NCBI GenBank assembly: GCA_023053545.1 | Contig: JAKZAN010000004.1 | Coordinates: 10,602,001-10,666,000, forward strand | Direction of reading: 5' to 3' | Origin: Lepidurus packardi | Lineage: Eukaryota > Arthropoda > Branchiopoda > Notostraca > Triopsidae | Length of the DNA stretch: 64,000 nucleotides | Shown: one piece after another, positions 44,344 through 50,000 of the stretch | Numbering within the stretch: position 1 is the stretch's first letter | Layout of the letters: each line of letters starts with the position of its first letter | The notes under the pieces: model-generated | The model's input: only the letters and a program-made list of their open reading frames with translations | Databases searched by the model: none | Told to the model about the DNA's origin: nothing | Made by a program: the position numbers and the translations under genes

Positions 44344-44502
44344 TTAAAGGGCAATAGCCACGAGTATAGCGTATTGATATTTGGATGGATTCTTATTGTA
44401 CACATTATTCTAAGAACGGGAAAATTTGTTTCAAATTTTTCCGACTAACCGTTTCCGAGTTATTGGCTTGCGAAGTTTTGGCAATTTTCCCGCCACTAGA
44501 AC

Positions 44503-44520
44503 CGTGACGTCAATAACGGG
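44503..44520 (+). promoter_or_regulatory. CRE-like site upstream of the THAP gene
   Basis: CGTGACGTCAATAACGGG contains the palindromic CRE core TGACGTCA and lies about 90-107 bp before the THAP start codon. The same sequence sits inverted upstream of the other gene of the element. A promoter role is inferred from position and symmetry. Confidence 0.45.
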
Positions 44521-44609
44521 AACAGCGCTAGAGTTGTGGCTTACGGGCGCTTCGTATACACTGGCTTTGTGTAGGCTTCCTCTGTGCTGTGTGATTTTTA
44601 GTGGAAAAA

Positions 44610-45826
44610 ATGGCAAGTAATCTGCCATCAAAGACAAATAACCATAGTGGTAACTATTGTGTTGCTTACGGTTGCAATAACAGTGGAAGATCTGGTGTAG
44701 GGATATATACATTCCCAAAAGACGCAGAAAGAAGACGGCAATGGGTGTTGCAAGTGCAAAGGACTAGGGCTGATTTTGTGGAAGCCACATGTAAATCGGC
44801 GTCTCTCTGTGGTGATCACTTCACCGAAGATCAATTTGACGGTAGTGTTGATCGACAGTTAGCAATGGGATTTCGGGCTAAAAGGCGTGGTAGGAGTTTG
44901 TTGCCAACCGCTATCCCTACTAAGTTTGATAGGCCGGCTACTGTGTCTGGGCTGCGAAGTCCACCCAAACCTCGGAAAACCTCAGCTATTGAGAAAAGAC
45001 AACGCCATAACGTAAATATACTCCAACGTTTGAAGACAAAATAGGGTAATGACATATGCACGTTTTAGATTATCCAAGAATTGCTGCTTCAAGGCGAAAG
45101 TACAAGTTCTGTCCCAACAGTTGCCACAAGCACTTGTACGTCAGACTCGGTGCCTGACTTAGTTTTTTCGGAGTCCACACCCGCAATTGATCTGGAAAAC
45201 AATGAAGAAGAAGTGACTTTGGCCGAAGCTAACATGAAAGATTTCTCTTGTCAATTTTCCGGAGTTGAAATGGCAGACTTTTCTTGTCAGTTCTCCGGTA
45301 TGACGACCCAAGACTTCTCTTGTCAGTTTCCTGAGGACGGGCTACTTTTGCCGGTAAATAGGATACCAATGCATATCAAACGTTCTAAATTGGAGAAACT
45401 ATATGTAGGAAAAGAACCCGCTTCCAAGAAGCAGTACCTTTACCTCAGAAAACCTGAATAGTACCCTAACTGAACAGGGCTATCCCTTTGACGACGATGT
45501 AGATTTTGAACCGGACGACGAATACGAGGACACGGAATCGGACATTTCACCCGTGAAAGAGTAAATTATATTGATCCAAGAATGTATTCTATATAAAGGC
45601 ATTTACTTCTAGGGAACAAGCTAGCTCTCCAATTCCACCTTTTGATCAAAGAAACAAAGAACGCAAATTTATGGTTTTCGAGAGTCAGTTGCGAACTCAG
45701 ATCGCGAAGGAAGGCAGATCGCGAGTTCCGCCACCCATGTGCAGCACGTATTATCATCCGGATAAGCGGAAAGCTGTGGACGAAAAAGTTACTCGCTTCA
45801 AAAAACCGAAGCAAAATAATGAGTAA
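44610..45826 (+). CDS. THAP-domain protein of the transposon, no DDE domain
   Basis: This is a DNA-binding protein expected to recognise the transposon ends. The exon model is 44,610-45,011, 45,069-45,353, 45,478-45,560 and 45,613-45,826 (327 residues). The THAP zinc finger at residues 16-106 has C17-x4-C22-x44-C67-x2-H70, F35-P36, W45 and the closing AIPTKF box. Residues 192-221 hold three copies of DFSCQF at a strict 12-residue period. An acidic stretch (FEPDDEYEDTESDI) and a KFMVFES motif near 275-281 follow; in full-length THAP transposases such a segment precedes the catalytic core. Here a basic tail (KRKAVDEKVTRFKKPKQ) and a stop come instead, so the catalytic part is absent. The second intron is uncertain: unspliced reading gives a different 35-residue tail ending at 45,461. 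An AATAAA follows at 45,920-45,925. Confidence 0.78.
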
Positions 45827-46030
45827 CAAAAAGCTTAGCTTGGGAAACGGTTTCTTTCTTTTTTTTTTGTCATCTGACCAAGAATGAGGGGATTTTTACG
45901 AATGATTTTTAGCCCTGAAAATAAATGAAAAGCTTAGCTTATGAAACGGAATTTTTTGTTGATTTCATATGACCTTAGCCCTGAAAAGGGCTCGGGCAAG
46001 GCCAGGGTCGAAAGGCGTCACGCATCGTTA

Positions 46031-46811
46031 TCAGGCGTCAGGCATCCACTCCGAGTATCCGACATACTGGCCAGTTGGATCTGGAAACTTGCTTTTGATG
46101 AAATGTTCAACACATGCTGGCAAGGGCTTTCTCGTCCTCGCTCCCAGTATCTTATACACGTTCGTGGTAACAGCACGGTAGGCGCTAAACCTGTTCCTCC
46201 TAACACATAAAATTTTACTTCAAAGCTTGATTAGCCATACTTTATGAAATACCTGTTGGGATCTACATCATCAGCAAACGGCAAATGTTTTTTCCGGGCA
46301 CTAGCGTAAGTACACCAGCTAAGGTATACATATTCCAGGACTGCCGGATGCAGCAAATGAGGAATAGCTTCCATTTCTGTATAGCACTTTGCCTGCTGAT
46401 GTGGAAAGTCCTCGTTATTAGCGTCGATTTTGGCTAAAAAGTGACGATTTCTCCTGCAACAGAAATTGTTGACAGGAAGAGGCATCCTAACGCACTTCCC
46501 ACAATCACACCTACAACATACTGTACAGTTAGAAGCACGTGATGTTTTATAATAAGTTACCAGTCAGAAACTTCAGACTCTCCAGAATCTCCAGGTCCAG
46601 AATCTGCAGCTACAAGTGATGTTGAAACACTAACACTGGCACGTGGGTTTGGCATTGGCAACCTTTGAGCCCTATATGGCTCAAACTGGTAGGCCTGAGC
46701 ACACGCAACTATTGGCACAGGAATGACAAAAGCCTGGTCCAATTCCGTCCCTTCATCCTCTACAAAGGGGCTTCTATCAAAATAAACGCTCTCGTCGAAA
46801 CCTTCAGCCAT
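46031..46811 (-). CDS. P2X7 C-terminal (ballast-type) zinc-domain protein
   Basis: The minus-strand exons 46,811-46,561, 46,510-46,253 and 46,190-46,031 give 222 residues with both junctions in phase. Residues 1-83 are acidic and Ser-rich and include YQFEPYR, a motif I associate with this family. The domain starts across the first junction as W84-C-D-C-G-K-C-V-R-M, then C101-C102-R, C126, the LEYVYLSWCTYAS helix, and a third exon with SAYRAVTTNVYKILG, then LPACVEHFIKSKFPDPTGQY, then VGYSEW. This matches the order in the cytosolic C-terminus of vertebrate P2X7 receptors (WCxCGxC, CC, NxxxxxAYR, LPxCxxxxIRxxFP, GxYxGF), which binds zinc and guanine nucleotide. No channel part is present; it is a stand-alone protein. 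The reading frame is intact over three exons, which argues for recent activity. Its role in transposition is unknown. It converges on the THAP gene. Confidence 0.84.
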
Positions 46812-46879
46812 TTTACTCGCTTTGTCTATCACTTTGTATACACGAAACGCAGGTCTGTGGTGCGCCAAGGTGCCGTGGC

Positions 46880-46899
46880 TCCCGTTATTGACGTCACGG
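46880..46899 (-). promoter_or_regulatory. CRE-like site upstream of the P2X7-domain gene
   Basis: This is the inverted counterpart of the 44,503 site (tcccgttattgacgtcacgg as read on plus). It lies about 70-88 bp upstream of the minus-strand start codon at 46,811, mirroring the distance on the other side. Confidence 0.45.
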
Positions 46900-47079
46900 C
46901 GCCACGTGACCGCGTTGGGCCAATGGCAAAAATGCCCGATTTGAATTTTAGATTTCTCATGTTCTGAAATATCGCAGTTATATTTTCGCGTATGATAAAA
47001 AGACACATAAAACTGTAAACTAGATTTTCTACTCCATTTTATAAGACAAAGTTGTTTTTTGGTGGCTATTGCCCTTTAA

Positions 47080-50000
47080 AGGGGCAATCAAAGGCCGTGG
47101 ATACAATAGACTTGATTACTTGACGTGGAAAGCGGTGTTGCCTCGTTTCCTGCATCTTTTGAGGGTTAAAGAATAGGCCAGTATTTATTGAGCGAAAGTA
47201 ATGGGGTGAGAAGGGTTGCCAGCCGGCAGCAGGGCACTCGACCTCTCTCTTTCTATCTCTCTCTAAAAGTCAAGTCAGCCATGCTGAAGGAAAGCTCTCG
47301 ACGACTTCCAGTAACCTTGGAAAACGGCCAATTCAAGTTTCTGGCTGTTTTAACTGGCTACGGATGAAAGCCCTTATTAGATTTTGGCTAGAATAACCCT
47401 CACAGTAAGCTTTATATAAAGGCCAAAGTGTTTCGCTAACCCGACTAGTCACTTACTTACGAGTCTTGGGGCCCTTGACCTTTCACTACTTTCAAGGCCA
47501 AAAGGGTATTTCAAATTAGCCAAACAAAATCCCAATTTTCCAGCAGTGTTTTCTTACCACTTATTTTGCATAATTATTTGATTATATTTAACCAGTAAGC
47601 CTTCAACTTACTACCACTTTAGACATCATGCTAGCGTTACTGTTTTCTGACAATAAAATCGATTTCCTTTCATAGGTTTTTTATTTTTCATCTATTTTTT
47701 ATAGCAGGAATTCCTGGGGGTCACAAGCTATTGCTAGGTTAATCTTAGACAAATACGAGTTGCATAATTAGGGAAACTATACTGGTAAATGTAGGAATTT
47801 CGAAGCTAAAGCGTTTAATATCGATTTGTAGTAGATCGATGTATGCTATATCGATTATACATATTGAATGTACACAAATCAATTTCTGGTAATTGTAATT
47901 AATGAATAAGAACTATCTCTTGAATTTATATAGATTTAGGGTATCGATTTTTATAGTATAACGAATTAATATAGGCATTGATGTCTGGGAATTATAAAGA
48001 AACGAACGAAATGGGAATATAGTTTCTGTTTTTACGTACTATTTTCTTGCGAATATATACCCATTTGTCCTATATGTATGCTATGTAGAATTTATATAGA
48101 TCGATTCCTAGTAATTCTAGATAATGAGTGAGGAACTATTTCCTGAATTTATGTAGGTTTATGATACCGATTTGTTTATTGTAGCGAATTAATGTGGACA
48201 TTGATAAACAAATGTAAATTTGTAAATGTTGTACATTTGTAAATAAATGAACGAAATTGGAATTTATTTTCTGTTTTATAAATTACTTTCTTGCATATGT
48301 ATTATGGATTTGTTATATCGAATAAAAAACTTACAGAATTTGTCCAACAAGTATCGATTCTGTGACTTGTCAGTAATGGAATAAAGAAAGCACTTCTCAC
48401 GCATCTTAATCTTAAGGATTAGACCACATTTGGTTCCGAAAATTGTGCAATAGCAACTGCAGCTTTGGCAGCTGTCGGCCAAGTTTGGTTCCGCAAATTT
48501 TAATAACGAATAATTCAATCCCCACAACTATTTCGTAGCTTTTCCAGTCAACTTTCTTCCAGAAAGGTTAAAATACCAGTTTTTGCCTGTGAATAATTCA
48601 ACTCCTCTCTGCAGCTCGAACTTCGCGTCACTAAGCGGCTTGCACCTTCAATTTCAAAATAGAAGCCATACTTCTATTTTTTAATACATATTTTTTATTT
48701 TTAATCATCCTCTGCTACTGAGAAGCTTTCCTTACTACATTTTTGTTCCACCTTAACATTTTTGTCGTTTTCTTCCTCATCCATATTCACACATCAGCCA
48801 AAGTTGTGTGGGGAATGGTGCCTCCCAAGGGTTTACACGAAATGACAAAATGCTTAACCTGCTTTAATTATTTCTTCGCGGAAGAGAAGAAGACGAAGCG
48901 GAAAATAACCCCAAAAATAGGGTTTTTCCCTTATCAATTTTCCAGCATAAAACCACACATAAGATGGTTAGGATTTCTGCGTTCGTCTCGCTACTACAGC
49001 ATAGTAAACTAAAGCTTCACGTCGGAACAAGAAATCCGAAACTCGAGCTCGAATACAAAGAAATGGGGGAAGAGGAAGAAATTTCTCAGTCTCAATTCTC
49101 AACGCCAAAAGACCTTTACCTACGGCCTGTTTTCTCCAAATCTCCTGATACCCACAAAAGGCAGCAAGGCGAAACAAGAGCTTCCAAAAGACTGCCACAT
49201 TTCTTCGTAGATCGTCTTCCGCCCACCTAAGGAAAAGGTCGCGTTCTATGGAAGAAGGAGTGTCAACATCAATTGCGGCAGTGATGGGAGGCGAAGGACA
49301 GTGAAGAAAAGGGCTCCATACGGCGAAAGGTTCCCTCTCGGAACCGAAATTTCTGCCGCAATTACAGACCGATACGGGACGAAGAAGAATAGCCCCCGGA
49401 CCCAAGCGGTCGTTCGTCGCGCTTTCCTACCCCTCAGGCTAAGACCGAAAAGGGAAGAGTATCTTCTTCTCCTGTTTTCAATTTACAGCTCTTCGAAGAA
49501 CCCGAAGCCAAAACCCTCCCCAGAAAAGCCCAAAGCTTTCCTGGGGGGTGGGGTTAGTCGTCTTTGCACGTCTTGCCTGAGGAATCGATAACAGTTCTTC
49601 GTTATCGCATGGGCCCATAGCATTGGCATCTTCTTTATCCTCCTTCCCCTTAAACCAAAGTTGCAAAGGATACAGAGAAGAAAAGCTTTTCAACAATATC
49701 TTCTGCTCGATTGTTGCTCAAGCGTCTAAAGCAACAGGGCCACGCCAACCCCCTTCTGTTGGCGTTGTTTTGTTGGGTCTAGGTTGCGAAGACACTCATA
49801 TCAGGCAGCCAGAATTGTCTAGGGGCTTTAGACACGCATTCAAGCGCGGTTCGGAAACCAAATGCCTTGAAAAATAATGCCAACAGTCAAAAATTGAAAC
49901 CGCATAAGGGATGGCAACAATGAAAAGCGGCAGGCCAAGCCACTGGGGACCGAGGCTTACATGAGGCACAAGGCCGGCGTGCAGAGACAGGTCCCAACCG

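Follow-up and report, generated by a model that had tools for sequence, protein, structure and literature searches.

Kolobok DNA transposons of the Kol0 lineage have been described as encoding, alongside a transposase, a protein termed KolX that has the ballast fold of the P2X7 receptor, and in the same account P2X7 is held to have arisen when a P2X4-like gene fused with KolX (Kojima & Bao 2022, PMC9587614). An earlier proposal (PMC7016195) involved capture of a ballast exon, and described a protein of the tick Ixodes in which a THAP domain (printed 'TAHP') lies ahead of the same cysteine domain; the main text of that paper mentions neither transposons nor Kolobok. Literature on Kolobok internal deletions and THAP domains, and on a transposon origin of P2X7, yielded nothing closer than the 2022 account. 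The link between KolX and P2X7, and the proposed origin of the receptor tail, are thus already known, and since the preliminary description of the present locus had made this its headline claim, the surprise it holds is limited; in-frame deletions of the transposase core and matched types of element ends and THAP domains were not found in print.

The locus considered here lies in a 64,000-nucleotide stretch of the genome of the notostracan Lepidurus packardi (the window; contig JAKZAN010000004.1), where positions 44344-47079 constitute a TTAA-flanked DNA transposon of 2736 bp with two convergent intron-containing genes. Very probably this is a non-autonomous, internally deleted Kolobok element of the Kol0 lineage, whose parent, to judge from related copies, would encode KolX and, convergent with it, a THAP-DDE transposase some 810 aa long. 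The probable Kol0 assignment is drawn from KolX similarity and gene placement.

Boundaries of the element and its copies in the genome

The outermost 18 nucleotides of the element (44344-44361 and 47062-47079) are 100% complementary, and comprise a TTAA target-site duplication (44344-44347 on the left, 47076-47079 on the right; a single TTAA stands at the empty sites of other copies) followed inwards by a 14-bp terminal inverted repeat (44348-44361, plus strand, and 47062-47075, minus strand, by inverted-repeat comparison). The perfect 14-bp ends and TTAA duplications originally reported for the element are therefore borne out, as are its two convergent genes, whose models are both open from ATG to stop once GT-AG introns of 50-57 bp are removed. 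The termini, AGGGCAATAGCCAC, with 5'-AG at the left start, fit the 5'-RR...YY-3' rule given for Kolobok (PMC9587614), rather than piggyBac. A second perfect inverted pair, of 20 nt, lies further in. Its left member (44502-44521, plus strand) starts 158 bp in from the left end, some 90 bp ahead of the THAP ATG, and its right member (46880-46899, minus strand) starts 180 bp in from the right end, some 70 bp ahead of the KolX ATG. This subterminal repeat, here of the type designated A below, includes TGACGTCA, which we take to be a CREB/ATF-type palindrome and which is found, at 44505 and 46889, 70-100 bp upstream of the ATG of each gene; elsewhere in the window it occurs only twice (29902, 60423), and a divergent copy of the element (L071) likewise has one. 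A scan of the element for bacterial-type promoters and terminators gave no excess over shuffled sequences, a result with no bearing on a eukaryotic element. Just beyond the right end, 47076-47100 reads TTAAAGGGGCAATC, a near-match to the element's own end TTAAAGGGCAATAG, which could reflect chance or a leftover of another end.

Searching the whole genome assembly (108.6 Mb, 344 contigs) with the 18-mer end, allowing at most one mismatch, gave 70 forward and 67 reverse matches, and the reversed 18-mer, used as a control on the same genome, gave none in either orientation. At least 59 matches were obtained with the DNA of the whole element, a lower bound because 40 of the 176 candidates were scored. 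Among the matches listed are six full-length copies of 2736 bp (L001-L006), of which three, including that of the window (L002), are identical to each other and two (L004, L005) differ from the window copy by one substitution each, such that five copies are 99.96-100% identical; the sixth, L006, is 96.7% identical. A further copy (L007) is identical to that of the window over bases 1-2497 and is cut off thereafter. TTAA borders each of the six full-length copies at either end, their flanks differing from one another, and likewise borders a larger copy, L051 (4359 bp; C16:1235953-1240311), which has the same kind of ends. Both genes had been expected to recur in any full-length copies, and the minus-strand gene is indeed present in others with the same ends.

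Empty TTAA sites exist in the same genome, at repeated sequences, for L051 and for one of the 2.7-kb copies (L003). When the flanks of L051 are joined at one TTAA, five of nine genome matches span the junction uninterrupted (four at 93-97% identity and one at 75%), and two of the four that do not cross it are L051's own flanks. The corresponding search with joined flanks of L001, L003, L004 and L005, in which 40 of 397 candidates were scored, gave listed matches for L003 only; its flanks match a dispersed repeat, and each of the 69 matches listed runs across the junction, 41 of them as far as the end of the L003 part. The flanks of the window copy are single-copy, matching only themselves across the whole genome, and hence the assembly yielded no empty site for this copy. 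The window element is a recently moved copy. As a separate observation, L051 sits in a sequence (flanks at C16:1235900 and 1240400) that recurs at several places, chiefly on contig C16, and that when translated looks, by eye, like a reverse transcriptase.

The plus-strand gene and the transposase of larger copies

The preliminary description paired a THAP protein with a P2X7-type protein. The THAP domain itself, a usual component of the Kolobok superfamily, is real and complete (Pfam PF05485, E 2.5e-14, profile positions 1-87 of 87), while its standing as a separate gene does not survive comparison with L051. The domain occupies exon 1 (44610-45011, plus strand, from Pfam and the splice model), and is followed by a linker with three DFSCQF repeats in exon 2 (45069-45353, the 3' splice choice being that of the model), where three in-phase 36-bp repeats at 45238-45329 give rise to DFSCQFSG-type motifs, and by an acidic linker in exon 3 (45409-45560, splice model). 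The last exon (45613-45826) is a fusion: what the parent gene has as exon 4 continues in frame into the 3' part of the parent's final exon, with the stop codon. The junction lies at 45699-45708, corresponding to positions 1348/2977 of L051, and here about 1.63 kb including the DDE core has gone, leaving a filler that resembles the neighbouring CAGATCGCGA. The resulting single frame of 350 aa runs from the THAP domain through the linker to ...FESQLRT, crosses a filler of five residues and closes with the final 37 residues, GRSRVPPP...NNE.

In L051 the two halves are separated by the approximately 1.63 kb missing from the window copy, and the gene runs on through the catalytic core. An automatic splice model gives a transposase of nine exons and 809 aa, convergent with the KolX gene, in which one intron is probably misplaced (VQV/...MELKG); the relatives suggest VQ/CNEPDVGHSCRMELKG at that point, with about the same length. 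Residues 340-740 of this protein retrieved 119 proteins at approximately 30-48% identity, many with a THAP domain, from animals that include lancelets, fishes, a hagfish, echinoderms, a hemichordate, ticks, molluscs and sponges. In an alignment, read by eye, of the L051 transposase with five of these THAP proteins (lancelet, fish, echinoid, hemichordate and sponge), the motifs GDGRAD, TDRH, D.WH and a later E show no variation, and an H...H...C.H cluster shows hardly any. The Kolobok DDE arrangement, with C/DxxH and a zinc cluster before the E, is thus present in L051 and deleted from the window copy.

A separate gene for the THAP protein is ruled out by L051 and the other core-bearing copies; on this comparison the plus-strand gene is a Kolobok transposase gene minus its catalytic core, which would make the element a non-autonomous derivative. 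That both of its genes are open, and that six full-length copies occur, five of them nearly identical, might suggest that the 2.7-kb element is instead complete in itself, comprising a THAP protein and a P2X7-domain protein with no need of a transposase core. We consider this extremely improbable, as the plus-strand protein corresponds piece by piece to the N- and C-terminal parts of the transposase in core-bearing copies. Another core-bearing copy, L052 (on C5, within 9625000-9634700), has KolX exon 1 broken by a nested insertion (L052:1163-4857) that contains three long reading frames of 359, 421 and 450 aa, with a sub-threshold match to Agenet (E 0.0013) in one of the three as its sole Pfam match.

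Under the non-autonomous interpretation, the DDE core would have been lost by error-prone gap repair after excision, as the short fillers that the deletion junctions carry suggest, leaving the THAP half and the last 37 residues fused in frame; the deletion class now present at six places would then presumably have been moved in trans by the transposase of larger copies, through recognition of the shared ends. Used as a query against the genome, the 70-aa fused exon had 36 matches (36 of 36 candidates scored), and the C-terminal exon was located at 14 places, five with the core (in one case 10 kb away) and nine without. In L051 positions, the nine core-less copies fall into three junction classes: 1348/2977 (six copies including that of the window), 1335/3000 (L006) and 1306/2983 (L008 and L009). 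These are counted as three separate deletion events, because L006 has a linker insertion in common with the core-bearing L052 that is absent from the window class, and because L008 and L009 are of type B. A second deletion has removed KolX exon 1 and part of exon 2 from L008 and L009.

It is possible, though on balance doubtful, that such core-deleted copies are kept because the remaining THAP-plus-tail protein represses or titrates the transposase, in the manner of the KP protein of Drosophila P elements, with KolX retained alongside. In all three junction classes (of six, one and two copies) the reading frame carries on from exon 4 into the last exon and the THAP half is open, and P-element repressors share two properties, retention of the DNA-binding domain and interruption of the transposase (PMC12393704). 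Against this, three of three in frame would arise by chance in 1 of 27 cases, and the six near-identical copies of the window class represent a single event. Other deletion classes have moreover lost the last exon, which puts them outside the frame test, and most of KolX, and yet have spread; KolX exon 1 is missing from L008 and L009 as well. The parallel between in-frame core deletions and KP, which we infer by analogy, was likewise not found in print.

KolX and its association with the transposase

The minus-strand gene comprises three exons, the first with its ATG at 46811 (46561-46811), the second containing a CDCGKC...CC motif and a ballast-type domain (46253-46510), and the third the end of that domain and the stop codon (46031-46199). 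The intact three-exon protein with a P2X7-type domain that had been proposed for this strand is confirmed as an open frame of 225 aa matching Pfam PF20478 (P2RX7_C) with E 2.7e-9 and 37.7 bits against a cut-off of 23.5. As a single sequence the protein matched PDB entries weakly (best E 0.012, the top three of four matches being P2X7), and a four-sequence profile gave E 2e-7 with P2X7 structures as all four matches. In protein searches, the single sequence found one relative and the four-sequence profile 20 proteins, several of them named 'P2X purinoceptor 7-like'; of the 13 that carry a species name, 12 are from molluscs and one from a lungfish, and seven are without one. Of the P2X7 cysteines in WCxCGxC, CC and PSCC, six are kept in KolX and the last is V in all four aligned sequences, in which another cysteine, C126, is also invariant. 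The ballast domain of P2X7 is described as having seven conserved zinc-binding cysteines. From its P2RX7_C and P2X7 similarity, together with its place beside a transposase gene, the minus-strand protein is identified as KolX, the Kol0-lineage accessory protein.

A 170-aa piece of the transposase core gave eight matches at six places in the genome (17 of 17 candidates scored), and KolX gave 73 matches (103 of 103). At four of the six core locations KolX lies within 0.7 kb of the core (C16:1237669, C5:9631962, C8:56080 and the divergent C16:1548723). At C16:1576397 it is about 10.4 kb away, the pair being enclosed by the same element ends and the spacing presumably due to a nested insertion, and C1:9653660 has core fragments with no KolX among the matches listed nearby. 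The ballast exon is whole, or nearly so, at 12 places: in six copies of the window class, in L006, in four close core-bearing copies and in the divergent L071. Most of KolX is missing from many shorter copies that share these ends, so the gene is dispensable in cis for spread; the likeliest role predicted for KolX is that of a partner of the transposase acting in trans.

Comparison of the window copy with L071 gave dN/dS ratios for KolX of 0.56 in exon 1, 0.12 in exon 2 and 0.13 in exon 3, which are rough because dS is high (1.0-1.6), synonymous sites being near saturation, so that only their direction is safe. Exon 1 is weakly constrained. For the transposase, a value of 0.02 was obtained over four pieces chosen by eye for conservation and is therefore biased low. 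Between the window copy and L051, whose KolX exons were taken from tblastn matches, exon 1 gives a ratio of 0.68, exon 2 differs by eight nonsynonymous changes and one synonymous, and exon 3 is identical; at so short a distance these differences do not demonstrate constraint. The suggestion that the P2X7-type protein is a transposon accessory protein thus gains support from its recurrence with the transposase between the same ends, and from domain exons in which, in the more distant comparison, most of the changes are silent.

The reverse of the published direction, namely that the element captured KolX from a host gene, appears very unlikely. Proteins with P2RX7_C, several named as P2X7-like, are known in molluscs and a lungfish, and no support for capture was found; KolX and the transposase are paired also in a subfamily only about 61% identical in KolX, so the association is not recent, and KolX has been assigned to the Kol0 lineage in diverse animals (PMC9587614).

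Two types of ends and comparison with described systems

Type A, represented by the window element, and type B, represented by L051, were aligned in 100-column blocks with the DDE core excluded. From base 594 to base 2293, 15 of 17 blocks are 98-100% identical, and the other two are 90 and 91% identical, one of them at the deletion junction. Identity is 65-95% in the six outer blocks on the left and 68-88% in the four on the right (2294-2679, the last 57 bases being unscored). Within these divergent outer parts lie the subterminal repeats, the greater part of the THAP exon, and KolX exon 1. The subterminal repeat reads TGACGTCAATAACGGGA in type A and TGACGTAGATAGTGGAGG in type B, each type having one and the same repeat at both ends. 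Ends and THAP type agree in all 11 elements for which both ends were found by pattern in one locus (type A, L001-L006; type B, L009, L016, L029/L030, L043 and L051), five of the six type A elements representing one deletion class; the remaining copies have one end in view or a varied end missed by the pattern, and four further ends (L023, L044, L046 and L047) match neither type.

Linkage of the THAP type to the left end is expected, as the two are neighbours; it is the agreement with the far end that carries information, tempered by the fact that any element needs two matching ends. We infer that the THAP domain may read the subterminal repeat, and the pattern suggests that both subterminal ends and the THAP half form a matched recognition cassette, an arrangement that we did not encounter in the literature. 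It is conceivable, if somewhat unlikely, that the Kol0 family regulates itself through such a swappable cassette (A or B) and recurrent in-frame THAP-plus-tail repressors, with KolX a common partner of either type; ballast exons, linker and transposase tail would then stay near-constant, and some repressors would travel with an intact KolX, giving type-specific control.

This compact and recently mobile Kol0 family allows KolX, the proposed origin of the P2X7 tail, to be studied as a transposon protein, in one genome that holds short copies hardly differing from each other, marked empty sites, and a larger copy whose transposase frame is open. Should the in-frame deletions and matched types prove functional, the family would show self-limitation of a Kolobok element and a change of its DNA specificity.

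Compared with Kol0 elements as described (PMC9587614, in the part available), the family shares TTAA duplications, 5'-RR ends, a DDE transposase in the larger copies and a KolX with the P2X7 ballast-type motif; it differs in that the window copy lacks the DDE core, the last CC of P2X7 reads CV over the stretches aligned, and two types of ends and THAP domain surround one interior. Xenopus XKol and its T2-MITEs (PMC6004289) resemble it in their Kolobok THAP, DDE and H2CH motifs, TTAA target and AG termini, and in non-autonomous derivatives presumed to be driven in trans, although the accessible portion of that account describes neither a P2X domain nor in-frame THAP-only derivatives of XKol. 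The window copy resembles KP in having an internal deletion by which the DNA-binding end is spared and the transposase broken off (PMC12393704). KP nevertheless belongs to another superfamily, and is described as a repressor whereas the window protein is only proposed as one. The DNA-binding end of KP is of THAP type, and KP is not known to carry a second gene. Finally, the P2X7 ballast and NANOR-like proteins (PMC7016195) show the same WCxCGxC...CC...LPxC...FP...GQYxG pattern as KolX, which differs from them in having no channel part and in residing inside a transposon.
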